A stretch of DNA of 64,000 nucleotides from contig NZ_RZGZ01000002.1 of the NCBI RefSeq assembly GCF_003990045.1, positions 620,001 to 684,000 of the forward strand. The letters are read 5' to 3'. The notes beneath the pieces are model-generated. The model did not search any database and was not told the origin of the DNA. It was given only the letters and a program-made list of their open reading frames with translations. Each line of letters begins with the position of its first letter. Within the stretch, counting starts at the first letter, position 1. A program made the translations under genes and the position numbers. This DNA is from Labedella endophytica (GTDB lineage Bacteria > Actinomycetota > Actinomycetes > Actinomycetales > Microbacteriaceae). Of this stretch, positions 273 through 33,888 are shown piece by piece.

Positions 273-1588
273 TTCTGCTCCTTCGGGGGGCGGTGCGGGT
301 GCGACTCGTCGTCGGGCCCGGCGCCGTCGGCGTCGAGGCTCTCGGCGAGCTGGATGACGGACGCCGGGACCGGCGCGTCGGGGCTGCGGTCGTTGGCGGC
401 CGCGTCGAGCGGGTCGAAGGCGGCGATGTCGGCATGCACCGCCGCGTCCTCGGGGAGCGACTGGGCGGCCGTCTCCACGGACTTCCGGCGCCCGAGGGGC
501 GCGAGGGTGACGATCGTGCAGACGACGACGCCCACGATGAGTGTCGTGAGGGCGATCGTGTACGGCTGGAAGACGAAGAACATGAGGCTCGAGACCGAGA
601 TCACGATCGTCCAGGCGTAGAAGATGAGGACGGCCTGGATCTGCGTGTGCCCCATGTCGAGCAGGCGGTGGTGCAGATGCAACCGGTCCGCACTGAACGG
701 CGACTTACCGGCGCGCAGGCGACGGGTGACCGCGAGTCCGAAGTCGAGCAGCGGGACCACGAGGATCGCGAACGGCAGGATGATCGGGATGAAGGCACCG
801 ATGAGCTGTGTACGGCCGAAGCGGTCGGGGCCCTCGATGAAGGCTGGGTCCATCTGGCCCGTGATCGCGATGGCGCTCGTGGCCATGAGGAGCCCCACGA
901 GGAGCGCGCCGGCGTCGCCCATGAAGAGCTTCGCCGGGTGCCAGTTGAGCGGCAGGAAGCCCGCACACACGCCGCACAGCACCGCGGAGATGAGGAGCGA
1001 GAGGCTGAAGTAGTCGGACGGGCTGATCTCGCGGACGAGCAGGTAGCCGTAGAGGAAGAACACCCCGTTGGCGATGAGGCTCACGCCCGCGACGAGGCCG
1101 TCGAGGCCGTCGATGAAGTTGACGGCGTTCATGACGAGAACGATCGCGAACACCGTCATCGCGACGCTCATCCACCCGGATCCCACCGTGAGGCCGCCGA
1201 TCGGGAGCGAGTAGATCTGGACCCCGAGCCAGGCGATGAGGCCGGCCGCGAGGAATTGACCGGCGAGCTTGATCATCCAGTCGAGGTCCCAGATGTCGTC
1301 GGCCATGCCGATGACGACGATCATGAACGCCGCCCCGAGGATGGCCCAAACGGGTCCGGGATTGGCGAAGATCAGCCGGTAGTAGGGATTGAACGACGCG
1401 ACGACGAAGGCGGCGACGACTCCGAGGAACATCGCGATCCCGCCGAGGCGCGGCGTGGGACGCGTGTGCACGTCTCGCGTGCGGATCTCCGGGTAGAGCT
1501 TCCACTTGTGCGCCGCCCGCAGCACCACGAGGCACAGGACGTAGGTGACGATCGCGGCGAACCCGGCGATGAGGACGTACTGGATCAT
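269..1588 (-). CDS. wecA: WecA/Rfe-type polyprenyl-phosphate GlcNAc-1-phosphate transferase
   Basis: This integral membrane enzyme moves GlcNAc-1-phosphate from UDP-GlcNAc to polyprenyl phosphate, the first lipid-linked step of cell-wall polysaccharide synthesis. The 439-residue protein has about 11 hydrophobic segments and the family motifs: the DD pair at residues 97-98, NFIDGLDGL at 157-165, MGDAGA at 223-228 and the HLHH motif at 304-307. After the last membrane segment an acidic tail of about 70 residues is probably disordered and cytoplasmic. The start at 1588 was chosen because it overlaps the tsaC stop (ATGA); an upstream in-frame ATG at 1603 lies inside tsaC. WecA versus a TagO-like role cannot be separated from sequence alone. 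Confidence 0.92.
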   Translation of the reverse strand: MIQYVLIAGFAAIVTYVLCLVVLRAAHKWKLYPEIRTRDVHTRPTPRLGGIAMFLGVVAAFVVASFNPYYRLIFANPGPVWAILGAAFMIVVIGMADDIWDLDWMIKLAGQFLAAGLIAWLGVQIYSLPIGGLTVGSGWMSVAMTVFAIVLVMNAVNFIDGLDGLVAGVSLIANGVFFLYGYLLVREISPSDYFSLSLLISAVLCGVCAGFLPLNWHPAKLFMGDAGALLVGLLMATSAIAITGQMDPAFIEGPDRFGRTQLIGAFIPIILPFAILVVPLLDFGLAVTRRLRAGKSPFSADRLHLHHRLLDMGHTQIQAVLIFYAWTIVISVSSLMFFVFQPYTIALTTLIVGVVVCTIVTLAPLGRRKSVETAAQSLPEDAAVHADIAAFDPLDAAANDRSPDAPVPASVIQLAESLDADGAGPDDESHPHRPPKEQK

Positions 1589-2265
1589 GAGTCGTCGGGC
1601 CACCCGCCGCCGGCGAGGGTGGTCCCGAGAACGCGTCGGAGCTCCTCGCCCGAGACGGCGCCGTTGCGCAGGATCGTGATCTTGCCGTCGGGGAGGGCGA
1701 GCTGGGTCGCGTCGATGATCGTGGACGCGCCCGAGTCTCCGCTCGGCCCGCCGTCGAGGTAGACGGACACGCTCTCGCCGAGCATGGCCTCGGCCTCGGC
1801 CGCCGTGGTGGCGGCCGGCTGGCCCGTGAGGTTGGCCGACGACACCGCGAGCGGGCCGGTCTCCTCGAGCAGCTCGAGCGCGAGCGGGTTGGCGGGCATG
1901 CGGAGGGCGACCGTTCCGGCTGTCTCGCCGAGGTCCCAGGAGAGGGAGGGCTGGGCCTGCATGACGATCGTGAGTCCGCCAGGCCAGAATTCGGTCACGA
2001 GGTCGCGCACGACGTCGGGGAACTCGGCGACGAGGGCCTCGAGCGTCGTGACGCCGGGCACGAGCACGGGCGGCGGCTGGGAGCGCGTGCGCCCCTTGGC
2101 GTCGAGCAGCCGCGCCACGGCCTTCGCGTCGAAGGCGTCGGCGGCGACCCCGTAGACGGTGTCCGTGGGGACGACGACGAGCTCACCGTGGCCGATCGCC
2201 TGGCGGGCGAGGCGCATGCCGGTGAGGAGTTGGGAATCGACGGAGCAGTCGTAGACGCGTGACAT
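1585..2265 (-). CDS. tsaC: Threonylcarbamoyl-AMP synthase (YrdC/Sua5 family)
   Basis: The enzyme makes L-threonylcarbamoyladenylate from Thr, bicarbonate and ATP for the t6A37 modification of tRNAs that read ANN codons. The 226-residue product is a single YrdC domain without the Sua5 C-terminal domain. It has the N-terminal VPTDTVYG signature (residues about 32-39), an R-S-Q-P segment near residue 62, and the SSAN motif near residue 140. The ATG at 2265 is preceded at 8 nt by TAGAAT, so the gene probably has its own leaderless promoter in the prmC-tsaC gap. It then continues into wecA through a 4-nt overlap. The open frame extends far upstream through prmC antisense-of-frame codons, but that extension has no homology and was discarded. 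Confidence 0.93.
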   Translation of the reverse strand: MSRVYDCSVDSQLLTGMRLARQAIGHGELVVVPTDTVYGVAADAFDAKAVARLLDAKGRTRSQPPPVLVPGVTTLEALVAEFPDVVRDLVTEFWPGGLTIVMQAQPSLSWDLGETAGTVALRMPANPLALELLEETGPLAVSSANLTGQPAATTAAEAEAMLGESVSVYLDGGPSGDSGASTIIDATQLALPDGKITILRNGAVSGEELRRVLGTTLAGGGWPDDS

Positions 2266-2273
2266 CGGGCACG

Positions 2274-2279
2274 ATTCTA
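2274..2279 (-). promoter_or_regulatory. -10 box of a leaderless promoter for tsaC
   Basis: TAGAAT reads on the minus strand and ends 8 nt before the tsaC ATG, the spacing expected for transcription starting at the start codon. No convincing -35 is visible. Confidence 0.55.
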
Positions 2280-2323
2280 CCGACGAGTGCCGGGTGCCCC
2301 CTCCACGACGCGACTCCACCTCC

Positions 2324-2385
2324 CGTGAGGTGTCGCGATCTGTTGCTATCAGGGCCCGAATGGCAACAGATTGCGACACCTCACG
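2324..2385. repeat. Long near-perfect palindrome between prmC and tsaC
   Basis: The left arm at 2324-2346 and the right arm at 2363-2385 form a 23-bp stem with one mismatch. The loop is about 16 nt and can itself pair weakly around GGGCCC. The core half-sequence is GTGAGGTGTCGC. It begins 5 bp after the prmC stop on the transcribed strand and lies upstream of the tsaC promoter, so it could end or protect the prmC transcript. There is no T-run, so it is not a textbook intrinsic terminator. It may be a member of a dispersed palindromic repeat family. Confidence 0.75.
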
Positions 2386-2389
2386 AGGG

Positions 2390-3262
2390 TCAGCGGGTGG
2401 CGCTCGTGATGCGGTCGCGCTGCGTGAGGTCGCGGAAGGTGGCGGGCGACGACCAGCCGTCGGCCGCGAGGAGATCGCGGATGGGCTCTCCCTGCAGCTC
2501 GCCGTGCTCGATGAGCACGCGACCGCCGGGACGGAGCAGTCGGAGCGCCGTGGCGGAGACCTGGCGCACGACGTCGAGGCCATCGGGGCCGCCGTAGAGG
2601 GCGTGGGCCGGATCGTGCAGGCGCACCTCCGGATCGCGCGGGACCGCGGCGTCCGGAACGTAGGGCGGGTTCGACACGACGAGGGAGACCGTTCCATCGA
2701 GGCGTGCGAGCGCGTGGGCCAGGTCGTCGAACACGATCGTGGCGTTCGTGGCCCCCACGGAATCGGCGTTCTGCCTCGCCCAGACGAACGCGTCGACCGA
2801 GTTCTCGACGGCGTACACCGTGGCGTGCGGCACCTCGGAGGCGACCGACAAAGCGATCGCGCCCGATCCCGTGCCGAGATCCACGGCGATCGGGTCCGCC
2901 TCGGGGAGGGCCCGCAACTCGTCGATCGCGTACTGGGCGAGCAGCTCCGTCTCCGGACGCGGCACGAAGACACCCGGGCCGACGGCGAGCCGCAGGGAGC
3001 GGAAGTACGCCGTCCCCGTGATGTGCTGCAGCGGCTCACGGGCGGCGCGGCGGGAGACGAGGTCGTCGAGGAGCTCGGCGTCGCGAGGCGCGAGGGTGCG
3101 CCCGACGACCATCGCGGCCGCGAGCTCGCCGCGACCGAGGTCGACGACGTGGCCGATGAGGAGTTCGGCGTCGACCTCTGGGGTCGTGATTCCGGCGGCG
3201 GCGAGGCGCGCGGCGGCGTTCGCGCGCGCAGCGGCGAGGGAGATGTCGGGTGGGGTGTCCAT
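2390..3262 (-). CDS. prmC: Release-factor glutamine N5-methyltransferase
   Basis: PrmC methylates the Gln of the GGQ loop of release factors RF1 and RF2, which raises peptide-release efficiency. The 290-residue length is normal. The N-terminal helical domain is followed by a Rossmann methyltransferase fold with DLGTGSG at residues 128-134 (SAM binding) and the catalytic NPPY motif at 198-201. Its substrate gene prfA lies upstream on the same strand, but the cysK-cysE pair on the other strand separates them. A TAAGCT -10-like box (3296-3301) suggests its own promoter, with a leader of about 30 nt. Confidence 0.95.
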   Translation of the reverse strand: MDTPPDISLAAARANAAARLAAAGITTPEVDAELLIGHVVDLGRGELAAAMVVGRTLAPRDAELLDDLVSRRAAREPLQHITGTAYFRSLRLAVGPGVFVPRPETELLAQYAIDELRALPEADPIAVDLGTGSGAIALSVASEVPHATVYAVENSVDAFVWARQNADSVGATNATIVFDDLAHALARLDGTVSLVVSNPPYVPDAAVPRDPEVRLHDPAHALYGGPDGLDVVRQVSATALRLLRPGGRVLIEHGELQGEPIRDLLAADGWSSPATFRDLTQRDRITSATR

Positions 3263-3406
3263 GGGGTTCCGAGCAGGTTCGGGGGTCGGTCCAACAGCTT
3301 AGTGGTTCGCCCCTTCCCGGTCGCCTCCGATCCGACAGGAGCACCCGATTCCTGCCTCCCGGCCGCGCACCCCCGCCAATTTCATGCCATACGGAGGCTG
3401 GGCCTT

Positions 3407-3412
3407 TAGGCT
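3407..3412 (+). promoter_or_regulatory. -10 box for the cysK-cysE operon
   Basis: TAGGCT lies about 70 nt upstream of the cysK start, leaving a leader of about 60 nt. The leader carries three imperfect copies of a 12-13 bp unit resembling CAGACGCATCCCC at about 3429-3463. A clear -35 was not found. Confidence 0.4.
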
Positions 3413-3428
3413 GGCGATGCACTGCATC

Positions 3429-3463
3429 GACGCATCCCCAGACGTATCCCCCAGACGCATCCA
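3429..3463 (+). repeat. Three short tandem repeats in the cysK leader
   Basis: Three adjacent copies of GACGYATCCMC differ at one or two positions each. They fall between the putative -10 and the ribosome-binding site, so they could be an operator or a structured leader; they could also be chance slippage. Confidence 0.4.
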
Positions 3464-3479
3464 CACACGAAGGACTCCC

Positions 3480-4418
3480 ATGACCGGCACGATCCACTCC
3501 GACATCACCGCAGCGTTCGGCAACACCCCGCTCGTCCGCATCAACCGGCTCGCCTCGGAGACCGAGGCGACCATCCTCGCGAAGCTCGAGTTCTACAACC
3601 CCGGTTCGAGTGTCAAGGACCGTCTCGGTGTCGCGATCGTCGATGCGGCCGAGAAGTCGGGCGAGCTGAAGCCCGGCGGCACCATCGTCGAGGGCACGAG
3701 CGGCAACACGGGCATCGCACTCGCGCTCGTGGGCGCGGCGCGCGGCTACAAGGTGATCCTCACGATGCCGTCCTCGATGAGCCAGGAGCGGCGCGTGCTG
3801 CTCCGCGCCTTCGGTGCCGAGCTCGTCCTCACGGAACCGTCCCTCGGGATGAAGGGCGCCGTGGAGAAGGCCAAGGAGATCGTCGACTCGACCCCCGGCG
3901 CGATCTGGGCGAAGCAGTTCGCGAACGAGGCCAACGCGGAGATCCACCGCACGACCACCGCCGAGGAGATCTGGCGCGACACCGACGGCGGCGTCGACAT
4001 CTTCATCGCGGGCGTCGGCACGGGCGGCACCATCACGGGCGTCGGCCAGGTGCTGAAGCAGCGCAAGCCCGGCGTGCAGGTCGTGGCCGTGGAGCCGATC
4101 GACTCCCCCATCCTCAACGGTGGAAAGCCCGGACCGCACAAGATCCAGGGCATCGGCGCGAACTTCGTGCCGGAGGTCCTCGACACGACCGTCTACGACG
4201 AGGTCATCGACGTCTCCTACGACGACGCCATCGCGGTGGCGAAGGACCTCGCCGCGAAGGAGGGCATCCTGTCGGGCATCTCGTCCGGCGCCATCATGTG
4301 GGCGGCCATCGAGCTGGCCAAGCGGCCCGAGAACGCCGGCAAGACGATCGTCGCGATCGTGTGCGACACGGGCGAGCGCTACCTCTCCACGCCGCTGTGG
4401 GCCGGCCTCGCCGACTGA
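3480..4418 (+). CDS. cysK: O-acetylserine sulfhydrylase (cysteine synthase A)
   Basis: This PLP enzyme replaces the acetyl group of O-acetyl-L-serine with sulfide to give L-cysteine. The 312-residue product has the usual length. Visible motifs are NPGSSVKDR with the PLP lysine at K46, the substrate loop GTSGNTG at 72-78 and the phosphate-binding GVGTGGT at 178-184. The C-terminus is compatible with the complex formed with serine acetyltransferase. The start at 3480 follows a GAAGGA ribosome-binding site; an earlier in-frame ATG at 3384 precedes the probable promoter. The partner gene cysE starts 7 nt downstream. Confidence 0.97.
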
Positions 4419-23033: not shown

Positions 23034-24329
23034 CTAGCTACCGGGCAGGGTGCCACCGTCGGACGGGGCCCCGTCGGCCGGTGCATCGCCCTCGGGTGCG
23101 CCGCCGCCCATGCCCCCGGTCGCTTCCTGCTGCTCGACACTGTTCGCATAGTCGTCGGTGGGGTCGCGGTAGATGGTGTGGACGTGGCCCCAGCCGGAGG
23201 TGCTGACGCCGTCGATGTCGGCGCCGGCCGAGCCTTGCTGGGCTTGGAACCCGACGTAGACGTTCGGGCCCGAGATCGAGAAGTTGATGCCGTCGCCCTC
23301 CGTCATGTCGTACGTCGTCTCGCCGGACCACGCGATCACGGTCTCGTCGAGCGTCGCCTCGATCTCGGCGCGGGTCGACGCGGCGGTTTCCTCGTCCGCC
23401 ATCTCGGACCAGTTCGCGATGAGGTCGAGGAGCAGCTCGCGCTGTTCGTCGGTGAGGTCGGCGCCCGTGAGACCGGCACCGCTGGTGAACTCGCAGGTGT
23501 CTCCCGGGGCGCACATTGTGACGTCGCCCGAGGTCAGGATCGCCTGCTGCTCGGCGGTGAGGGAGTCGAAGAACGCGAATGCGTCCGAGTAGATCCCGTC
23601 GAACACCTGCACCTCCGTGCCGTCCTCGCTCGTCCAGTCGGCGGGCTGCGCGCCGAGGTGGGTCGGAGCGAAGGTGATCGCGTCGGCGGCGCCGTCGAGG
23701 GTGGCGTTGATACCGAGGTGGTGTCCGCCGAACTGCACCGTGTAGGCGCTGGTGTCGGAGGCGTCACCGAAGAGCGCGATGTAGTACTGGCCGAGAGTGG
23801 ACTCCGTGGTGCTGCTGTTCTCCACGAGGTACTGGTCGCTGGCGATGATGTTCGACACGGTCTCGTAGGCGCCGTCGCTGAGCAGGGCCTCCATCACCTG
23901 GAGGGCGGCGACCTGCTGTTCCTCTGTGAGATCCGCGACGTTCAGGCCGGCACGGTCGACGAGCGTGATCGGGAAGTTCGACCACGACGTGGTCTTGGTC
24001 TCGTCGTCGTAGTCGAAGGTGACGGCTTCGCGCTGCTCGTCGGAGAGCGTTGCGAGGAAAGCCTGGACGGCCTCGGTGGTGTTCGTGATGGTCTCGGCCG
24101 TGGTGCTCGCGTCGGAATCGGCGACCGCCGTCGCGGCATCAGCGACCGTGACATCACCGGTGGCACTGCTCGACGTGGTGGTGCCGGAAACGGTCGACCC
24201 GGCAGAGCTGACGGCTCCTGAGGCGCAGCCGGTCAGTAGGAACCCGCCGACCAGGAGCACAGTCGTTCCAAGGAGGAGTCGGCGTCGGCGTGGGCGTGGG
24301 CGCGTAGTGGAATCCGATTTCTGTGTCAT
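23034..24329 (-). CDS. DUF3500 lipoprotein
   Basis: The 431-residue protein has an Arg-rich N-terminus ([12 protein letters not shown]) and a lipobox (LLTGCAS), so it is a lipid-anchored surface protein. A Ser/Thr/Ala linker leads to a domain matching the DUF3500 family: repeated helices of the type LSDEQREAV and LTDEQRELLLDLI, the FGGHHLGIN core and the terminal GWGHVHTIYRDPTDDYAN. The pair of His in GGHH and the HVH near the end could bind metal. The two cysteines in MCAPGDTCEF may form a disulfide. The tail is Gly/Pro/Ala-rich. The family has no established biochemical function. It faces a sensor kinase gene across 127 bp. Confidence 0.82.
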   Translation of the reverse strand: MTQKSDSTTRPRPRRRRLLLGTTVLLVGGFLLTGCASGAVSSAGSTVSGTTTSSSATGDVTVADAATAVADSDASTTAETITNTTEAVQAFLATLSDEQREAVTFDYDDETKTTSWSNFPITLVDRAGLNVADLTEEQQVAALQVMEALLSDGAYETVSNIIASDQYLVENSSTTESTLGQYYIALFGDASDTSAYTVQFGGHHLGINATLDGAADAITFAPTHLGAQPADWTSEDGTEVQVFDGIYSDAFAFFDSLTAEQQAILTSGDVTMCAPGDTCEFTSGAGLTGADLTDEQRELLLDLIANWSEMADEETAASTRAEIEATLDETVIAWSGETTYDMTEGDGINFSISGPNVYVGFQAQQGSAGADIDGVSTSGWGHVHTIYRDPTDDYANSVEQQEATGGMGGGAPEGDAPADGAPSDGGTLPGS

Positions 24330-24456: not shown

Positions 24457-26796
24457 GTGCCGGTGATAGAAAGTCGTCCGGCGGAACCGAGGGCGCTAGC
24501 CCGGAACGGCTGGCGGCACCTGCGAGGCACTGCGCCCGAACAGTCCGCATCGAGTTCCGGCGACGAGCGGCCGCTTCGAACCGGCGTTGCACGCGGGATG
24601 GTGTCCACCCTGTCCGTCGTCGCACCACTGCTGGTGCTTTTCTCGCTCCCGGGATTCCTGGCGGACCACCGGACTGAACCTCTGTCGCTCCTCGTGCTGT
24701 CGCTGTGCCTCAGCGGAGTGATGGTCGCCGCACTCCCCCTGGCCCTCGTACGGCGCGGCGAACCAGGCCACACGTGGCCTCGGGTGTCCGCAGCGGCATA
24801 CCTCAGCCTCATGGCGCTGGAGGGCTTGCACCTTCATTCTCCGTCGCCCTCCGGCTCAGCGCCGTGGCTCGTCGGTATCTCGTGCGTCGCGTTCAGCGCG
24901 CTCGCGCTCGGAACGAATCGCCCGTTGTGGGCGGGGCTCGGGTGCATGGGTATTGTCGCCGGAATCACCGTCATCTACGTCGATCACGTGTCGATAGAGA
25001 ACCTCGTCGTGAACTCCGTCGGGCTTCTCGCGATCGCCGCGGCTCTGATTCTGGGGGTCACGACCGTGCGTCACCGGGCCGACCTTGCCGACTCGACAGA
25101 GCGCAGTGTGCGTGACTTGTTCGAGCGCTCACAGCGGCAAGCGGCACTCGAATCGGAACGTGTGCGCACGGACGCGCTCTTGCACGATTCCGTGCTTGCG
25201 ACCCTCTCGACCGCCGCCTCCGGATATGGCACACCCGACCAGACCCTGATCATGGCCCGTACCGCGCTCGAGGTCGTGACCGGCACGGCCGACGTCCCTG
25301 ACAAGCCCTCCTTGAGGGTGACATTCGAGCGCGCTGTCGCCGCGGCCGAGCACGAGCTCACACCCGTGCAGGGCGCGGTCCGGTTCGACCTGAGCGACGC
25401 CTCCGCCGTCGAATTGCCTGTCGACGTCGCCGAAACCCTCGTCGCGGCGATGCTGCAAGCTCTCAACAACAGCATCAAACATGCCGGCCAGTCGGTCGAT
25501 CGAGGCGCCACAGCCACTCGAGTTGGCGACGACGGCATCAGCATCGACATCAGCGACAACGGCCGCGGTTTCGACCCGGCGCAGATCGCGCCCGAACGGC
25601 TCGGTGTTCGAGCGTCGATCCTCGAGCGCATGACCCTGATCGGTGGCAACGCGGAGATCCGGTCGGCTCCCGGCAGCGGGACGACCGTGCTCCTCCAGTG
25701 GAGCCCGACCTCGACTGCACCCCCACCAGATCCGCGCTCCATCGCTTCGATGCACGTCATCTCACGACGGGTTCTCTACGGCACTCTCGCCGTCATCGTC
25801 GCGATCGCGATCCTGACCGCGGCGGTTCAGATCGCGCTCGTCTCCCGAGCCGCCGGGCCGCTCATCGCCACCGTTCTGGGCCTCATCATTCTTCCCACCA
25901 TGGTGCGAGGCGCGCGTATGGGTACGATGCGACGGTCGACCGCGTGGATCGTTACCGCGGTCGGCTGGACCATCTGTCTCGTCGGCACGATCGGCCTCGA
26001 TGCTGAGGAGTACGATTCCGTTTCCATCGCCTGCTACACCTGCGGCGTCCTCGCCGGTTGCGTCATGGGGTGGATGACTGGGTATCGAGTACCGCCAATC
26101 CTGACCACCGTCATTCTCGTGGTCAACGTCGCCGTCTGGGCAGGGCCGCTGGGGGTTGTTCGGCTCGCCCTCGCCGGGGAGATCGTCATCGTCGTCGCCG
26201 GCTTGATACTGCACCGCGCTATCCAACGCGTCACGGAAGCGGCACGCACGGCCGCGACCAAGGAGCGCGAGACGACGCTCTGGCAGGCCGAACTCGATGC
26301 GTTCCAGCTCGAGCGCCAGAAGCGGCTGCGGCTCGTCAGCCATGACGCCGCGCCGATGCTTCGACACATCATCAGGACAGGCGGCGCTCTCGACCAGCCT
26401 GCACGCGTGCAATGCCGTGTCCTGGAGCAGACGCTTCGTGACGAGATCCGTGGTCGTCTCCTTCTCAACGACAACGTCCGTTCCGCCATTCTTCGTCACC
26501 GTCGACGCGGTGCGCTGGTCCTCCTTCTCGACGACGGGGGTCTGGACGACCTCTCACCGACCGATCGCGAAGAGCTCCTCGACGACGTCGCGCGCCGGAT
26601 CGAACCGCTCAGGTCGAGCCGAATCGTCATCCGCACCGGGCAGTCGCACGACACGACAGCGATCACCATCATGGCGTCGACACCCGACGACACCGCGGCC
26701 GCCCTCGGCCTCGACGACGACTCCGAGGTCGACCTGTGGGCGGTCATCCCCCGCCCCGTCGTCGCCGATCGCATCGTCGCTGCCGCACCTCACTGA
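24457..26796 (+). CDS. Orphan sensor kinase with a second, degenerate kinase half
   Basis: The 779-residue protein has two halves of similar plan. First half: about five membrane segments (50-200), the NarL-type dimerisation helix LLHDSVLATLS with the putative phosphoacceptor H243, then an HATPase_c domain with N-box ALNNSIKHAG, G1 box DNGRGFD and G2 box SGTT. Second half, from about residue 430: a further set of five or six membrane segments, a VSHDAAPMLRH helix and an ATPase-like domain without recognisable N or G boxes. No response regulator is adjacent. The GTG at 24457 is uncertain, and an ATG at 24598 (MVSTLSVV) would remove about 47 residues. A MacB-type exporter follows after 282 bp and could be its target. 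Confidence 0.75.
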   Translation: MPVIESRPAEPRALARNGWRHLRGTAPEQSASSSGDERPLRTGVARGMVSTLSVVAPLLVLFSLPGFLADHRTEPLSLLVLSLCLSGVMVAALPLALVRRGEPGHTWPRVSAAAYLSLMALEGLHLHSPSPSGSAPWLVGISCVAFSALALGTNRPLWAGLGCMGIVAGITVIYVDHVSIENLVVNSVGLLAIAAALILGVTTVRHRADLADSTERSVRDLFERSQRQAALESERVRTDALLHDSVLATLSTAASGYGTPDQTLIMARTALEVVTGTADVPDKPSLRVTFERAVAAAEHELTPVQGAVRFDLSDASAVELPVDVAETLVAAMLQALNNSIKHAGQSVDRGATATRVGDDGISIDISDNGRGFDPAQIAPERLGVRASILERMTLIGGNAEIRSAPGSGTTVLLQWSPTSTAPPPDPRSIASMHVISRRVLYGTLAVIVAIAILTAAVQIALVSRAAGPLIATVLGLIILPTMVRGARMGTMRRSTAWIVTAVGWTICLVGTIGLDAEEYDSVSIACYTCGVLAGCVMGWMTGYRVPPILTTVILVVNVAVWAGPLGVVRLALAGEIVIVVAGLILHRAIQRVTEAARTAATKERETTLWQAELDAFQLERQKRLRLVSHDAAPMLRHIIRTGGALDQPARVQCRVLEQTLRDEIRGRLLLNDNVRSAILRHRRRGALVLLLDDGGLDDLSPTDREELLDDVARRIEPLRSSRIVIRTGQSHDTTAITIMASTPDDTAAALGLDDDSEVDLWAVIPRPVVADRIVAAAPH

Positions 26797-27078: not shown

Positions 27079-28542
27079 ATGTACTTCACGTATCTGCGAC
27101 GCGAATTGAGCGGCCGCACCAAACAGACAGTCATCGTCTCAGCGGGGCTCGCGATCGCGATCGCACTCGTCATCATCGTCAACGCCCTCACCGCGGGGGT
27201 GCGAGACGCGCAGACGCAGGCTCTCGAGTCCGTCTACGGCGTGGGCACCGACCTCACCGTTGCGGGTGCCCAGCAGGAGCCAGACGAGCGCGACGATTCC
27301 CGCTTCGAGTTCGATCAGGACGGCGGAGCCACGGCCGACGACGGCAGCACGACGCTCGCGCAATCGCAGCTCCGCACCGAGATGGGACGCGGAACGCTCG
27401 CTGCCGCGACGATCTCCACGATCTCGGCGATCGGCGGCGTTTCCTCGGCGACGGGTGCGCTGAGTCTCACCAACTCGACCTTCTCCGGCGAACTCCCCCA
27501 GACGACCGACGGTGGGACGAGTACTGAAGGCGAGGCAGGAACACCCCCTGCCGACGGTGACCAGCAGGGCGGGGGTGGCTTCGGCGGTGGTTCGTTCGAC
27601 GTCGAATCCTTCACGGTGCTGGGCGTCGATCCGGCCGTGCAAGCGGTAGGCCCGCTCTCCTCTGTCACGGCTTCCGAGGGCCGTGCCCTCGACACGGGCG
27701 ACGCCGGCCAGAACGTCGCCGTTCTCGACGCGACCTACGCGACGACGAACGACCTCGCCGTCGGTGGCACCGTCGACGTGGGCGGCACGACGATGGAGAT
27801 CGTCGGCATCGTCTCGTCGAGCTCGAGCGACACGGACACCGCCTCGAACATCTACATCCCCCTCGACGTCGCCCAGTCGCTCGCGGGAGTCGGCGACGTC
27901 GTCTCGACCGTCTACGTGCAGGCCACGTCGGCCGACGGCATCGCCACCGTCCGGGACGAGATCGAGACGGCCCTCCCCGACGCGACCGTGAGCTCCCAGT
28001 CGGACCTCGCCTCCACGGTGTCCGGTTCGCTCTCGAGCGCCACGTCGCTCATCACCAGTCTCGGCACGTGGCTGTCGATCCTCGTCCTTGCGGTGGCCGT
28101 GGTGCTCGCTGTGCTGTTCACGATGTCCGGTGTCTCACGACGCACCCGCGAATTCGGCACCCTCAAAGCGATCGGCTGGTCCAACGGCCGCGTCATCGGG
28201 CAGATCGCCGGGGAGTCGATGGTGCAGGGTCTCATCGGCGGCGCGATCGGTCTCGCCATCGGGCTCGGCGGCATCCTCGCGATCAACGTGATCGCTCCCA
28301 CGATCTCCTCCGCGACCGCCGCGACCGAAGCCGGCACCAGCGGACGACCGGGAGCTGGCGGACCCGGGTTCGCCTCCGCGGCTCAGACCGCGACCGACAT
28401 CACGCTGAGCGCTCCACTGACGCCGTGGGTGCTCGTGGCCGCGGTCGGCCTCGCGGTGTCCGCCGGACTCGTCGCCGGTGCCTTCGGTGGGTGGCGAGCC
28501 GCCCGGCTGAGCCCTGCTGAGGCCCTCCGGTCCGTCGCGTGA
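27079..28542 (+). CDS. MacB/FtsX-type ABC transporter permease
   Basis: The 487-residue protein has an N-terminal membrane segment (about 17-38), a large extracytoplasmic domain (about 40-330) and three C-terminal membrane segments typical of the FtsX/MacB permease fold. The coupling segment after the second helix reads GVSRRTREFGTLKAIGWS. The external domain contains an acidic and Gly/Gln-rich low-complexity stretch (TPPADGDQQGGGGFGGG) and the loop between the last two helices is also Gly-rich. An ideal AAAGGAG ribosome-binding site precedes the ATG. The ATPase gene follows 55 bp later. Cargo may be a peptide, lipoprotein or antibiotic. Confidence 0.9.
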   Translation: MYFTYLRRELSGRTKQTVIVSAGLAIAIALVIIVNALTAGVRDAQTQALESVYGVGTDLTVAGAQQEPDERDDSRFEFDQDGGATADDGSTTLAQSQLRTEMGRGTLAAATISTISAIGGVSSATGALSLTNSTFSGELPQTTDGGTSTEGEAGTPPADGDQQGGGGFGGGSFDVESFTVLGVDPAVQAVGPLSSVTASEGRALDTGDAGQNVAVLDATYATTNDLAVGGTVDVGGTTMEIVGIVSSSSSDTDTASNIYIPLDVAQSLAGVGDVVSTVYVQATSADGIATVRDEIETALPDATVSSQSDLASTVSGSLSSATSLITSLGTWLSILVLAVAVVLAVLFTMSGVSRRTREFGTLKAIGWSNGRVIGQIAGESMVQGLIGGAIGLAIGLGGILAINVIAPTISSATAATEAGTSGRPGAGGPGFASAAQTATDITLSAPLTPWVLVAAVGLAVSAGLVAGAFGGWRAARLSPAEALRSVA

Positions 28543-28597
28543 AACGCGCAGCCGGCACTCACTTTCCCCCGCGTCATTCCCGACAGGAGTCAGCAGC

Positions 28598-29323
28598 ATG
28601 ACCATCACCCGTTCACACACCGGCCCGATCGCCGAGCCGACCGTCCCCGTGTTGTACCGTCTCGCGGACGTGTCGAAGACCTACACGCAGAAGAAGCGCG
28701 TCGTGAAGCCGCTCGTGGGGGTGGATCTCGTGATCCCACGCGGCGAGTTCGTCACCATTCAGGGCCCAACGGGCGGTGGCAAAAGCACCCTGCTGCAACT
28801 GCTCGGCGCCCTCGACCGCCCGACGTCGGGGCGGCTGACACTCGGAGACACGGACCTCGCCGAGGCGAGCAACTCCGCCCTCGGCACCGCGCGAGCCCGG
28901 GAGATCGGCTTCGTCTTCCAGGGCTTCAACCTCATCCCGACGCTCACGGCGACCGAAAACGTCGACATGGGACTCGAACCGCTCGGCCTCACCGCGGCAG
29001 AGCGCCGTTCCCGCGTGACGGACGCCCTCAGCCATGTGGGACTCGCGGATCGCGGCGATCACAGGCCGGGCGAGTTGTCGGGCGGTCAGCAACAACGCGT
29101 GGCGATCGCCCGGGCGATCGCCAAGCGGCCGCGCGTCCTCCTCGCCGACGAGCCCACCGGCAACCTCGACGAGAGCATGCGCGACGAGATCCTCGATCTC
29201 CTGCAAACGCTCAACGAGGACGGACTCACGCTCGTCGTCGTGACGCACGACTCCGCCGTCGCACGGCGCGCGACGCGGCGCCTGCGGCTGGAGAAGGGCA
29301 CGATCCGCGACATCACCCGCTGA
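28598..29323 (+). CDS. MacB/LolD-type ABC transporter ATPase
   Basis: The 241-residue nucleotide-binding subunit has Walker A GPTGGGKST near residue 50, the Q-loop VFQGFNLIPTLTATENV, the signature LSGGQQQRVAIARA, Walker B RVLLADEPTGNLD and the switch His in VVTHD. These are characteristic of the MacB/LolD/FtsE subfamily. It pairs with the upstream permease. The N-terminus has about 20 extra residues before the domain. In Gram-positive bacteria such pairs often act in antimicrobial-peptide efflux under a sensor kinase, which fits the kinase upstream, but that link is inference. Confidence 0.92.
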   Translation: MTITRSHTGPIAEPTVPVLYRLADVSKTYTQKKRVVKPLVGVDLVIPRGEFVTIQGPTGGGKSTLLQLLGALDRPTSGRLTLGDTDLAEASNSALGTARAREIGFVFQGFNLIPTLTATENVDMGLEPLGLTAAERRSRVTDALSHVGLADRGDHRPGELSGGQQQRVAIARAIAKRPRVLLADEPTGNLDESMRDEILDLLQTLNEDGLTLVVVTHDSAVARRATRRLRLEKGTIRDITR

Positions 29324-31152: not shown

Positions 31153-33888
31153 TTAGTCGTCGGTGGACGGATGCAGATCTGCCTCGGTCGAGAGGACGTC
31201 CGGCAGCTGCCGCCGGGTGGATATCCCCAGCTTGTGGAACGCGGCGTAGAGGTGCGCGCCGACCGTCCGCGGTGAGACGAAGAGGTGCTCGCCGATTGCA
31301 CGGTTGCTCAGTCCCTGAGCCGCGAGCGTGCAGACCCGGAGCTCCTGCGGGGTGAGCAGTTCGTCGCGTCGCCCGGTGGCCGCCAACCGCTCGCCCGTGG
31401 CTCGGATGGCGTCGCGTGTGCGCTCCTCCCAGGCAGGCGCGGGTATCGCCCCGAAGAGAGCAAGGGCGGCGTGGAGGACGTCGCGGGCATCCCCGTTCTC
31501 TCCCGTGCGGTGGAGACGCCGTCCGAGGCGGAGGAGCGCTCGAGCTTGCGCGTACGGCATCGGCCAGCGGGCGTCCTGCACCGCGGCCCATGCCGAGGTG
31601 AGCTCGTCGTCGGGGACGAGCGCGAGCCGGGCATGGTTCAGAGCGGCCTCGACCATCGGTGCGTGCCACCGTGCGTGGAGCGACTCGAGGTCGGCGAGCC
31701 GTTGCTCGGCGTCCTTCCGCTTGCCGGACTCGAGGGCGGCGTCGACGAAGTCAGGTGACGTGATGACCGCGAAATCGGGATGGTGCGCGTCATGTTCGGG
31801 GTCGGCGATGCCCCGGAGGCGCTCGAGGGCCTTCGCCGGGTGGCCGGTCACCAGGTACGCCGCGCCCTCGGCACCCAAGATGGTCGCGCGCATCGCGCTC
31901 GACCGGAGCACCTGCGCGCCGGCTTCCGTCCCACCGGTGATCGCGTCGACATCGGGCTGCCTGCCGTCGAGGGCGTCGAACCACGCGAGTGCGCAACGCA
32001 CCGCGGCGGCGAACCCTGTGTCCCCCAGGTCACGGCCGAGCGACGCCGCCTCGTCGGCGAGGACACGGGCCTTCGAGACGTCCCCGGCGAGGTAGGTCGT
32101 CATGGAGGCCCCCATGAGCGCCTGCGGGAACGTACGCAGGTCGCCTCGCACCCGCATGCTCGCGAGGGCTCGATCGAGGAGGACACGCGCGGTGTCGATG
32201 TCTCCGACGAGATTGAGCGCATACCCGACGAGCCACGCCGACTCCTCATCCTCGACGGACGCAGCCGCCCGGAAAGCTCGTTCCAGGACGCGATCGCCCC
32301 GGACCACCGGCTCCGTTCGCGCAGCGAGGAGAATTGCCCGCGGATCGTCCTCCGGCAGCGCGAGCGCCTCGACGACGGTGAGCATCGGGTCGCCGGGGCT
32401 TGCCTCCAGGGTGTGGTCCCACGCGATCGCAGCGAGGTGGAGGAGCGCAGCAGTGGCGTGCTCCACCCCGCCGACCGCCTGCATCTCCGAAACGGCGTGG
32501 AGCGCCAGCCCGAGGTCGCCCCTGGACAGTCCCGTCCGACCGGTGGGCAACATCTCGGACACCCATGCCGCCCGCGCGGCGAGAAGCCGGTCCGGTGCCT
32601 CCGAGCCGGCCCGGTGCGCGAGGAGCGATGCCTCCGAAACGCGCCCAGACAACCCCGCGAGCTCCGCCGCAGCGATCAGGCGGTCGACCCGAACGGCCAC
32701 GTCCGAGGTGAGGTCGGCCGCCCGCTCGTACGCACGACTGGCGACGAACGGGTCGGACATCGCCGTCCGACCGTCGGCGAACGCAGCGATCTCGTCCGCG
32801 AGAGGATCGTCGTGACCCGCCGCGAGTTCGGCGCGCCACCAGATCGTCCGCATCGGCTCATCCTCGTGTTCGTGCACCAGCGCCTTCAGCACCGCGGCAC
32901 GTTCCGTCGGCGAGGCCGTCGCCAAGACGGCCGACTGCACGAGCGGGTGTCGGAATCGGATGGCACGAGGAGCAACCCACTCCAGGAGTCCGGACGCCGA
33001 GGCTCGTTCCGTCCATGCCGGCGCCGGAACCTTCCCGATCGCCCGTCCGGCGACCTGAGCCGCCTCTTCTGCGGTTGCGTCGCTGGAGAGCGCCACTGCG
33101 AGGAGGGCGAGTCTCGTGGGCTGGTCCAGTTCCGCGTAGCGATCGGCGAACTCCTGTTCCACCCGCCCGATGACGGGCCGCTGGCGGGGACGGTCCACTG
33201 AGGTGGATCGGCCGAGTTCTCGGAGCGCGAGCGGGTTACCCGCGGCACGAGCCATGAGCTCGCGCCGTGCCTGCCCCGACGGCGCACCGGGAACCGCGTC
33301 GAGCAGCTCAGCGGCGGTCGCGTCATCGAGCGGCGCGAGGTGCAGGCGTTCCACGCCGGGCTCGTCGAAGGCTTCCATGTTTCGCGTCGACATCACCACG
33401 ACGATCGGGTCCTCCGAGACGCGACGGGCGAGCATCCGAAGTGCCCATTCGGACGATGCATCGATCCAGTGCAGGTCCTCCACGACGATGAGAAGCGGGC
33501 GCTCGGCGGCGGCGTCGGAGAGCAGGGTCAGCGCCGCGAGCCCAGCGAGGAGCGGCGACGGCTGCACGCCCGTCGCGACGCCGAAGGCGACGTCCAACGC
33601 ACCCCGCTGTGGTGCCGGCAAGCCGGCGATACCCGCGCGCAACGGGTACAGGAGCCTGTGCAGCGCCGCGTACGGCTCCGCTGATTCATCCAGAGTGCCA
33701 GTCGTCGTGAGGACCCTCACGCCACAGCTGCTCGCGTACTCGATGACCTCGGCGACCAGCGACGACTTGCCGATCCCCGCTTCGCCGTCGATCACGAACG
33801 CGGAACCACCGCTGCCCACCTCGCGGATCGCCGTACGGAGGGCCGCGATCTCCCGCTCACGCCCGATGACGGGCTGCGCCATCGTCAT
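31153..33888 (-). CDS. LuxR-family LAL regulator with AAA ATPase domain
   Basis: A 911-residue regulator. The N-terminal STAND-like ATPase has Walker A DGEAGIGKSS near residue 35 and Walker B LLIVVEDLHW near 140. A long helical repeat region follows (about 300-830), typical of ligand- or partner-sensing TPR-like segments. The C-terminus has a LuxR helix-turn-helix (LTPQELRVCTLAAQGLSNRA, then HLFVSPRTVGAHLYAAFHKL). Such regulators usually activate nearby genes; the two hydrolases downstream on the same strand are candidates. An internal ATG two codons in (33882) is an alternative start. Confidence 0.92.
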   Translation of the reverse strand: MTMAQPVIGREREIAALRTAIREVGSGGSAFVIDGEAGIGKSSLVAEVIEYASSCGVRVLTTTGTLDESAEPYAALHRLLYPLRAGIAGLPAPQRGALDVAFGVATGVQPSPLLAGLAALTLLSDAAAERPLLIVVEDLHWIDASSEWALRMLARRVSEDPIVVVMSTRNMEAFDEPGVERLHLAPLDDATAAELLDAVPGAPSGQARRELMARAAGNPLALRELGRSTSVDRPRQRPVIGRVEQEFADRYAELDQPTRLALLAVALSSDATAEEAAQVAGRAIGKVPAPAWTERASASGLLEWVAPRAIRFRHPLVQSAVLATASPTERAAVLKALVHEHEDEPMRTIWWRAELAAGHDDPLADEIAAFADGRTAMSDPFVASRAYERAADLTSDVAVRVDRLIAAAELAGLSGRVSEASLLAHRAGSEAPDRLLAARAAWVSEMLPTGRTGLSRGDLGLALHAVSEMQAVGGVEHATAALLHLAAIAWDHTLEASPGDPMLTVVEALALPEDDPRAILLAARTEPVVRGDRVLERAFRAAASVEDEESAWLVGYALNLVGDIDTARVLLDRALASMRVRGDLRTFPQALMGASMTTYLAGDVSKARVLADEAASLGRDLGDTGFAAAVRCALAWFDALDGRQPDVDAITGGTEAGAQVLRSSAMRATILGAEGAAYLVTGHPAKALERLRGIADPEHDAHHPDFAVITSPDFVDAALESGKRKDAEQRLADLESLHARWHAPMVEAALNHARLALVPDDELTSAWAAVQDARWPMPYAQARALLRLGRRLHRTGENGDARDVLHAALALFGAIPAPAWEERTRDAIRATGERLAATGRRDELLTPQELRVCTLAAQGLSNRAIGEHLFVSPRTVGAHLYAAFHKLGISTRRQLPDVLSTEADLHPSTDD

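Follow-up and report, generated by a model that had tools for sequence, protein, structure and literature searches.

A probable single-chain fusion of a sensor histidine kinase with its pseudokinase partner in Labedella endophytica

A few kinase:pseudokinase heterodimers are known. DivL, which we take to be the protein with a repurposed catalytic domain, is separate from the kinase under its control and unfused to it, and in split histidine kinases the acceptor and the ATPase lie on different proteins. In the available excerpts of the papers cited here, the closest experimentally studied case is the FasBCA system of group A Streptococcus, in which two six-helix sensor-kinase-like proteins and one response regulator (RR) are encoded at the same locus; FasB and FasC formed a heterodimer but not homodimers in two-hybrid tests, and one of the two is a proposed pseudokinase (PMC12675982). 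RocA, as excerpted, has six putative membrane helices, a dimerisation-like and a catalytic-like region and a predicted acceptor His that is dispensable, and it acts via CovS, with positive co-immunoprecipitation and negative two-hybrid results (PMC7028121). The excerpts further describe a ChrS pseudokinase variant of Corynebacterium glutamicum that forms a heterodimer with the active kinase HrrS (PMC9491836), DivL of Caulobacter as a pseudo-histidine kinase (PMC9430884), the repurposed catalytic domain of a pseudo-histidine kinase (PMC4211667) and split histidine kinases as two HK-like polypeptides in place of one (PMC3591291).

The gene analysed here, a fused histidine kinase/pseudo-histidine-kinase gene, is a single open reading frame of 779 aa on the + strand (24457-26796) of the window, by which we mean the whole 64,000-nucleotide stretch of DNA (C2:620001-684000). 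It has a GTG start and no internal stops; the authentic start could be as much as ~40 codons further downstream, residues 1-34 being modelled at pLDDT <50. Half 1 comprises a membrane module of six predicted helices (residues ~39-200, 24571-25056, +), the third of them weakly hydrophobic, signalling and dimerisation helices that include the phospho-acceptor His243 (residues ~201-278, 25057-25290, +), and an ATPase domain that bears the N, G1 and G2 boxes (residues ~287-418, 25315-25710, +). A fusion linker, mostly at pLDDT <50 (residues 419-431, 25711-25749, +), leads into half 2, the degenerate HK-like partner (residues 432-779, 25750-26793, +), whose onset coincides with the second-gene start of split relatives. 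Half 2 comprises its own membrane module of six predicted helices (residues ~437-594, 25765-26238, +), dimerisation-like helices with no conserved His (residues ~595-665, 26239-26451, +) and a degenerate ATPase-like domain that lacks nucleotide boxes (residues ~666-769, 26452-26763, +). The predicted layouts are near-repeats, with helices at 39-70, 76-98, 106-125, 137-152, 156-174, 180-255 and 260-278 before the ATPase domain in half 1, and at 437-461, 466-488, 493-510, 521-540, 545-562, 572-640 and 647-665 before a smaller alpha/beta domain in half 2. A DUF3500 protein gene (23034-24167, -; Pfam E 1.3e-70) lies divergent from the fused gene.

Each of the described systems shares part of this arrangement, as far as the excerpts go. 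FasBCA resembles the RR-HK-partner triad of the split relatives described below in having two six-helix kinase-like proteins and one RR; it differs in that these are separate proteins and that FasC has the acceptor His246 and a predicted HATPase domain (PMC12675982), whereas the window partner has neither a conserved His nor nucleotide boxes, is part of one chain with the kinase and has no RR beside it. RocA is, like half 2, a six-helix pseudokinase beside a partner kinase, but is a separate, unfused protein acting on CovR/S. The ChrS variant is likewise an actinobacterial pseudokinase paired with an active kinase, but is the product of a frameshift during laboratory evolution, belongs to no conserved family and is unfused (PMC9491836). 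DivL is like half 2 as a pseudo-histidine kinase that controls another kinase. The window protein differs from split histidine kinases in that half 1 bears both the acceptor His and the ATPase.

Half 1 has the residues of an active-type kinase. Residues 326-414 match HATPase_c in Pfam (E 1.3e-8, 35.7 bits against a cut-off of 26.4), and His243, Asp244, Asn338, His342, Asp367, Gly369, Gly371 and Gly383 are each present in 75 of the 75 kinase halves in alignment A4, which holds 64 of the 68 split kinase rows, 57 of the 68 split partner rows and 11 fused rows, the frame-broken L061 being omitted here as in alignment A3. The phospho-His helix and the N, G1 and G2 boxes that the initial annotation had placed in the first half are borne out by this match and these eight residues. 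When the full-length model was compared with solved structures, the ATPase fold of half 1 was closest to VraS (Z 15.5) and DesK (Z 14.8); the window protein has no Pfam match to HisKA_3 (PF07730) at E<=1, so half 1 may work like the HisKA_3 class without Pfam membership. It reaches 54.5 bits against MacS (NF047322), short of the 300-bit NCBIfam equivalog score. Half 1 is 23-31% identical to 19 split kinase rows, and its His243 helix shares the HDxVL core with the triad kinases, the residues next to it being different at several positions.

Neither Pfam nor NCBIfam yields a match to half 2 at E<=1. A Pfam search with each of its 79 relatives gave scattered weak matches to 21 families, HATPase never among them, and a match to MASE8 in five (best E 1.7e-4). 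DxGxG, NxxKH (N, two or three residues, K/R/Q, H) and GxG[LIVMA] were found by pattern search in the ATPase-like part of none of the 79 partner sequences (best 80 of 440 relatives). A repeat of the layout without nucleotide-binding boxes, as originally proposed for the second half, is supported by this result and by the helix map; the 'SHD' motif proposed along with it is not. The position of His629 in that motif is His in one of the 79 partners and Arg in 62, which rules out a second phospho-acceptor there and marks the motif as chance. A His with D, E, N, Q or T as the next residue does occur in the dimerisation-like helix of nine partners, at varying positions, and some His lies within the dimerisation-like stretch in 76. 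Half 2, having neither nucleotide boxes nor a conserved acceptor His, has the sequence features of a pseudo-histidine kinase. Its conserved signature, LExxLRDEIRGRxLL (residues 656-670), begins at the end of the dimerisation-like helices, and seven residues are invariant across 41 diverse partners (Leu204, Glu226, Arg230, Arg234, Arg251, Asp261 and Arg295 in half-2 numbering).

By profile comparison and predicted fold, half 2 is a degenerate relative of histidine kinases. An hhalign comparison of 62 partner rows with 124 HK rows (duplicates included) reached 98.0% across 343 columns, in colinear order from the membrane to the ATPase part; the default local mode gave 96.3% over 197 columns, and 94.7% remained after removal of the fused partner rows and the kinase rows of the window's clade. 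Controls with one side reversed gave 12.4% and 15.7%, and with both sides reversed 96.4%, as expected. Part by part, the ATPase region gave 56.2%, the membrane region 30.8% and the dimerisation region 3.7%, with non-matching or reversed parts below 1%; an earlier comparison of the halves with narrower alignments had aligned 29 columns. The partner profile scored above 10 bits in 36 of the 124 kinase rows, in none of the 124 reversed rows and in none of six other membrane proteins. Searched against solved structures, a partner profile returned no sensible relative, the matches being designed proteins without a self-passing stretch and chance-like rows.

The predicted structure of half 2 (pLDDT 84.3, pTM 0.60) points the same way. 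Its residues 239-338 match the DesK ATPase domain (Z 8.1, rmsd 2.9, 88 residues), although a Z near 8 may, according to the guidance of the structure comparison tool, reflect merely a common arrangement; this match ranks third, behind two unrelated helical proteins (Z 8.5 and 8.4) on the membrane part. The structural matches listed from half-2 residue 235 onward are HK or CheA ATPase domains, and the top twelve Foldseek matches for half 2 alone are all histidine kinases, yet with a best E of 0.15. The comparison of half 2 with HATPase families suggested at the outset yields no Pfam match, hhalign values of 94.7-98.0% and the DesK-like fold.

A profile search of contigs with the full window protein gave no matches; a subsequent search with alignment A1 gave 440 relatives, and the best 80 among them, making up 79 loci, were kept. 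Sixty-eight of these loci are split, and the 11 fused-type ones (L051-L061) come from Frondihabitans, Curtobacterium, Clavibacter and Frigoribacterium. In split loci the partner gene usually starts within the 3' end of the kinase gene or immediately after it, and the RR gene lies directly 5'. The RR-HK-partner order, with the RR <=1.5 kb upstream, is found in 67 of the 68, the exception (L070) lying at a contig end, so that an RR in the same locus, as in FasBCA, is present in 67 of 68 split relatives and absent from the window; the matched part of these RRs is 71-97% identical to a reference RR. The fused frame is intact in ten relatives (L051-L060), with half 2 52-59% identical, and also in L033, so the two-half design, which the initial annotation suggested looking for in homologues, does recur among them. 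In Clavibacter michiganensis CASJ009 (L061, 4672-7052) the fused gene is broken across two frames, its relatives carrying intact copies. Four fused copies occur in the single genome of Frondihabitans PhB188 (L052, L057, L059 and L060), and L052 and L059 have in common a gene that appears by eye to encode a serine recombinase. Half 2 has matches in 146 of 199 genomes of the same family, many of them within open frames of ~750 residues; in the 20 stretches examined these were overlapping GC-rich frames, save for the fused L032 and L033. The genome of the window has a triad of its own (L031, C2:850.9-853.8 kb), ~204 kb from the fused gene, and both other same-family genomes with a fused copy from the window's clade also have one (L041 and L157).

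Separate production of the partner from an internal start at Met432 was considered and is unlikely: relatives do not share that codon, and across an eight-codon stretch at the junction, ATG or GTG is kept in none of the ten other fused rows and TTG in two. The picture of a tandem fusion with one pseudokinase half, put forward in the initial annotation, agrees with the HATPase_c match, the intact relatives, the hhalign result, the DesK-like fold and the absent boxes. Its history needs amending, in that the fusion stands and the decay of half 2 inside the gene most likely does not, since the separate partners of the split loci (68 of 79) are already non-catalytic. Half 2 was probably a pseudokinase already before fusion, because none of the 79 partners, mostly separate genes, holds the nucleotide boxes.

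In a partner tree of 62 sequences (26 of the 68 split rows, the window, L031, L033, L036, L051-L060 and 22 others), 12 fused rows, the window's among them, group in a single clade (SH-aLRT 100) that spans several genera. Its sister is L036, a kinase/partner pair of the split type that lacks a triad-type RR; within 2736-9048 of L036, this pair lies between a CDP-glycerol glycerophosphotransferase gene and two GAF-ANTAR genes. Six further fused rows lie outside the clade (L142, L146, L147, L148, L154 and L155). Four changes between the fused and split states are needed on the tree, three of them forced by starred branches; their direction may be fusion or split, and long branches in several fused rows make some placements unsure. 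Repeated changes of this kind are as expected if kinase and partner bind one another.

An RR gene adjoins the fused gene in L142, L146, L154 and L155, as it does in L147, where the kinase part is broken across two frames; around the fused gene of L148 there is none in 5.6 kb. No triad-family RR was found in the flanks covered of 13 fused loci (L032 and L051 being the same gene, and the upstream flank of L054 extending ~0.6 kb). Given the RRs next to fused genes elsewhere, the missing RR marks the window's clade and not fusion itself. The absence of an RR, as initially reported, therefore stands for the window and the covered flanks of the clade, and fails for the system as a whole, in view of the split and other fused relatives. 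In the two Curtobacterium loci L054 (7607-8326) and L055 (11791-12507), a receiver-domain regulator, judged by eye, lies ~4.7 kb 3' of the fused gene; by BLAST it falls outside the triad RR family. Besides the fused gene itself, no neighbour gene is common to all fused loci of the window's clade, according to crude gene calls. A MacB/FtsX-like permease and ABC ATPase (27079-29323, +) follow the fused gene in the same orientation; as a regulated target this pair was rejected, the neighbour not being common to the fused loci. An ABC ATPase of the same cluster lies 2.8 kb 3' of the fused gene in L056, with weaker and more distant ABC matches in L053 and L061, and a link of the fused gene with ABC transporter neighbours may nonetheless exist.

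None of the 27 receiver-profile matches in the genome falls within the window; the nearest, at C2:685341, has its own HATPase gene at C2:685757. The window also contains a 911-residue frame (31153-33888, -) with a GerE DNA-binding match (G000:C2:651204-651359) and no receiver match, by eye a large LAL-type ATPase regulator. Sixteen of the 17 receiver+GerE genes of the genome adjoin a HATPase match, three such matches being below the family cut-off. The search for an unpaired NarL-type RR called for in the initial annotation thus returned one candidate, at C1:394.5-395.1 kb, with a receiver match that is itself below cut-off. As a first guess, the target RR would most likely be that of the triad (G000:C2:853.3-853.8 kb), with the unpaired RR (G000:C1:394.5-395.1 kb) less likely; the drift of half 1 (23-31% identity) and its altered His243 helix mean that the target may be another one.

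The full-length model of 779 residues has a pLDDT of 85.6 and a pTM of 0.71, and by our reasoning, with the halves 431 and 348 residues long, a pTM above ~0.55 requires a confident relative placement. Adenylyl cyclases (AC9, AC8 and AC5) take the first nine places among its structural matches. All listed adenylyl cyclase rows (Z 15.0-17.4, 338-409 residues) cover residues 31-626, including both membrane modules; mostly helical models typically reach a best Z of 14 without known relationship, according to the tool's guidance, and a Z of up to 17.4 is accordingly suggestive of a likeness and no proof. Mammalian adenylyl cyclases, in the excerpt available, combine two six-helix clusters of one chain into one 12-helix membrane domain, for which that of the histidine kinase CqsS can substitute (PMC12414865). 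The likeness lies in the predicted arrangement only, as the window protein has no Pfam match to a class III cyclase catalytic domain at E<=1. The model suggests a 12-helix single-chain pseudo-dimer.

We consider it probable (about 0.6) that the gene encodes a sensor HK fused to its own pseudokinase partner, with half 2 acting as a non-catalytic lever and the RR encoded elsewhere. The sequences show two adjacent genes of an RR-HK-partner triad joined into one frame, in which half 1 has every catalytic motif and half 2 has none. The two six-helix modules are predicted to pack as one 12-helix pseudo-dimer, half 2 replacing the second HK protomer, and this asymmetric membrane unit may sense the signal. 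ATP would be bound by half 1 alone and His243 phosphorylated in cis or on the half 1 of another chain, while half 2 might set the kinase/phosphatase balance via the conserved LExxLRDEIRGR surface. Phosphate would then pass to a NarL-type RR encoded elsewhere in the genome.

An alternative, which we think unlikely, is an ordinary homodimer through half 1, with half 2 as an extra sensor or brake outside the kinase core. DesK works by trans-phosphorylation between two chains, and half 1 does possess a complete membrane module, a dimerisation helix and an ATPase. Homodimers are also typical of sensor kinases, according to the excerpt consulted (PMC12675982). Against this, the model at pTM 0.71 joins the two halves and the cyclase matches span residues 31-626, although a single-chain model is blind to homodimers. 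A slightly less probable reading is that the partner is an RR-binding or phosphatase-promoting accessory whose LExxLRDEIRGR surface touches the RR or the kinase ATPase domain. Seven invariant residues in 41 partners seem beyond the needs of a pure scaffold, and RocA alters the phosphatase activity of CovS, as stated in the part of that paper available (PMC7380576). The six membrane helices and the several fused pairs on the tree favour pairing with the kinase, but the two functions are compatible.

We regard it as improbable that the orphan fused copy is a decoy or decaying paralogue with no RR target. Its scattered neighbourhoods, the lack of a triad-family RR in the covered flanks of the 13 fused loci and the broken frame of L061 would fit such a fate, but all tested kinase motifs are invariant in 11 fused rows and the clade extends across several genera, which indicates that the fused gene is under selection. 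Least credible is a sequencing or frameshift artefact joining two genes. The split state is indeed commoner (68 of 79 loci from the best 80 of 440), but the same fused frame is intact in ten other loci at 52-59% identity over half 2, as well as in L033, which rules out such a join.

Relatives of the partner extend beyond the family. At E<=0.001 the narrow alignment A1 detects them in 87 of 396 genomes from the order and, at class level, in 32 of 394; the 41-row alignment A5 gives 74 of 394 in the class and 16 of 296 in the phylum at the same threshold. Class matches below 1e-30 with A5 occur in 31 of 394 genomes, and weaker ones may be ordinary kinases, since a profile of this breadth picks up kinases as well. 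Plasmids of Pseudarthrobacter and Rhodococcus also carry triads, in which the RR is annotated as a LuxR regulator, the kinase as 'ATP-binding protein' and the partner as 'hypothetical protein'; the two hypothetical proteins match the partner profile in a nine-sequence search (E 8e-50 and 2e-32); tblastn with half 2 of the window had no match on plasmids. Under labels such as those of partner and kinase in these two RefSeq plasmid triads, the system is easily missed in annotation. Among the matches listed in a literature search of titles and abstract openings, with subscription journals mostly outside it, no publication concerned the triad or a fused kinase/pseudokinase. We tentatively propose, at somewhat short of even odds, an unnamed and widespread actinobacterial three-part class, read as a NarL-type RR, a six-helix kinase and a six-helix pseudokinase without a Pfam model, whose fusions, in several lineages, are single-chain pseudo-heterodimeric HKs with a 12-helix design convergent with animal cyclases. 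If so, one live and one dead catalytic half would lie beneath a shared membrane receptor, and the conserved pair with its natural fusions would form a set of heterodimers of fixed stoichiometry and orientation. The single-chain form would let cis or trans phosphorylation, the identity of the signal-reading half and the role of the dead half be tested, all of which homodimers blur.

A further, more diverged kinase/partner pair is possibly represented by L150 (G000:C2:751500-757500), where an HK of the same broad family, a 407-residue membrane protein and then an RR are encoded (1309-3800); the membrane protein has no Pfam family and escaped both partner profiles. In Amnibacterium, two RR-HK-partner triads lie head to tail (L034 and L035; L064 and L065 in named records), and two Amnibacterium-like triads occur on a contig labelled as an Acidobacteria MAG (L062), which is probably mis-binned.
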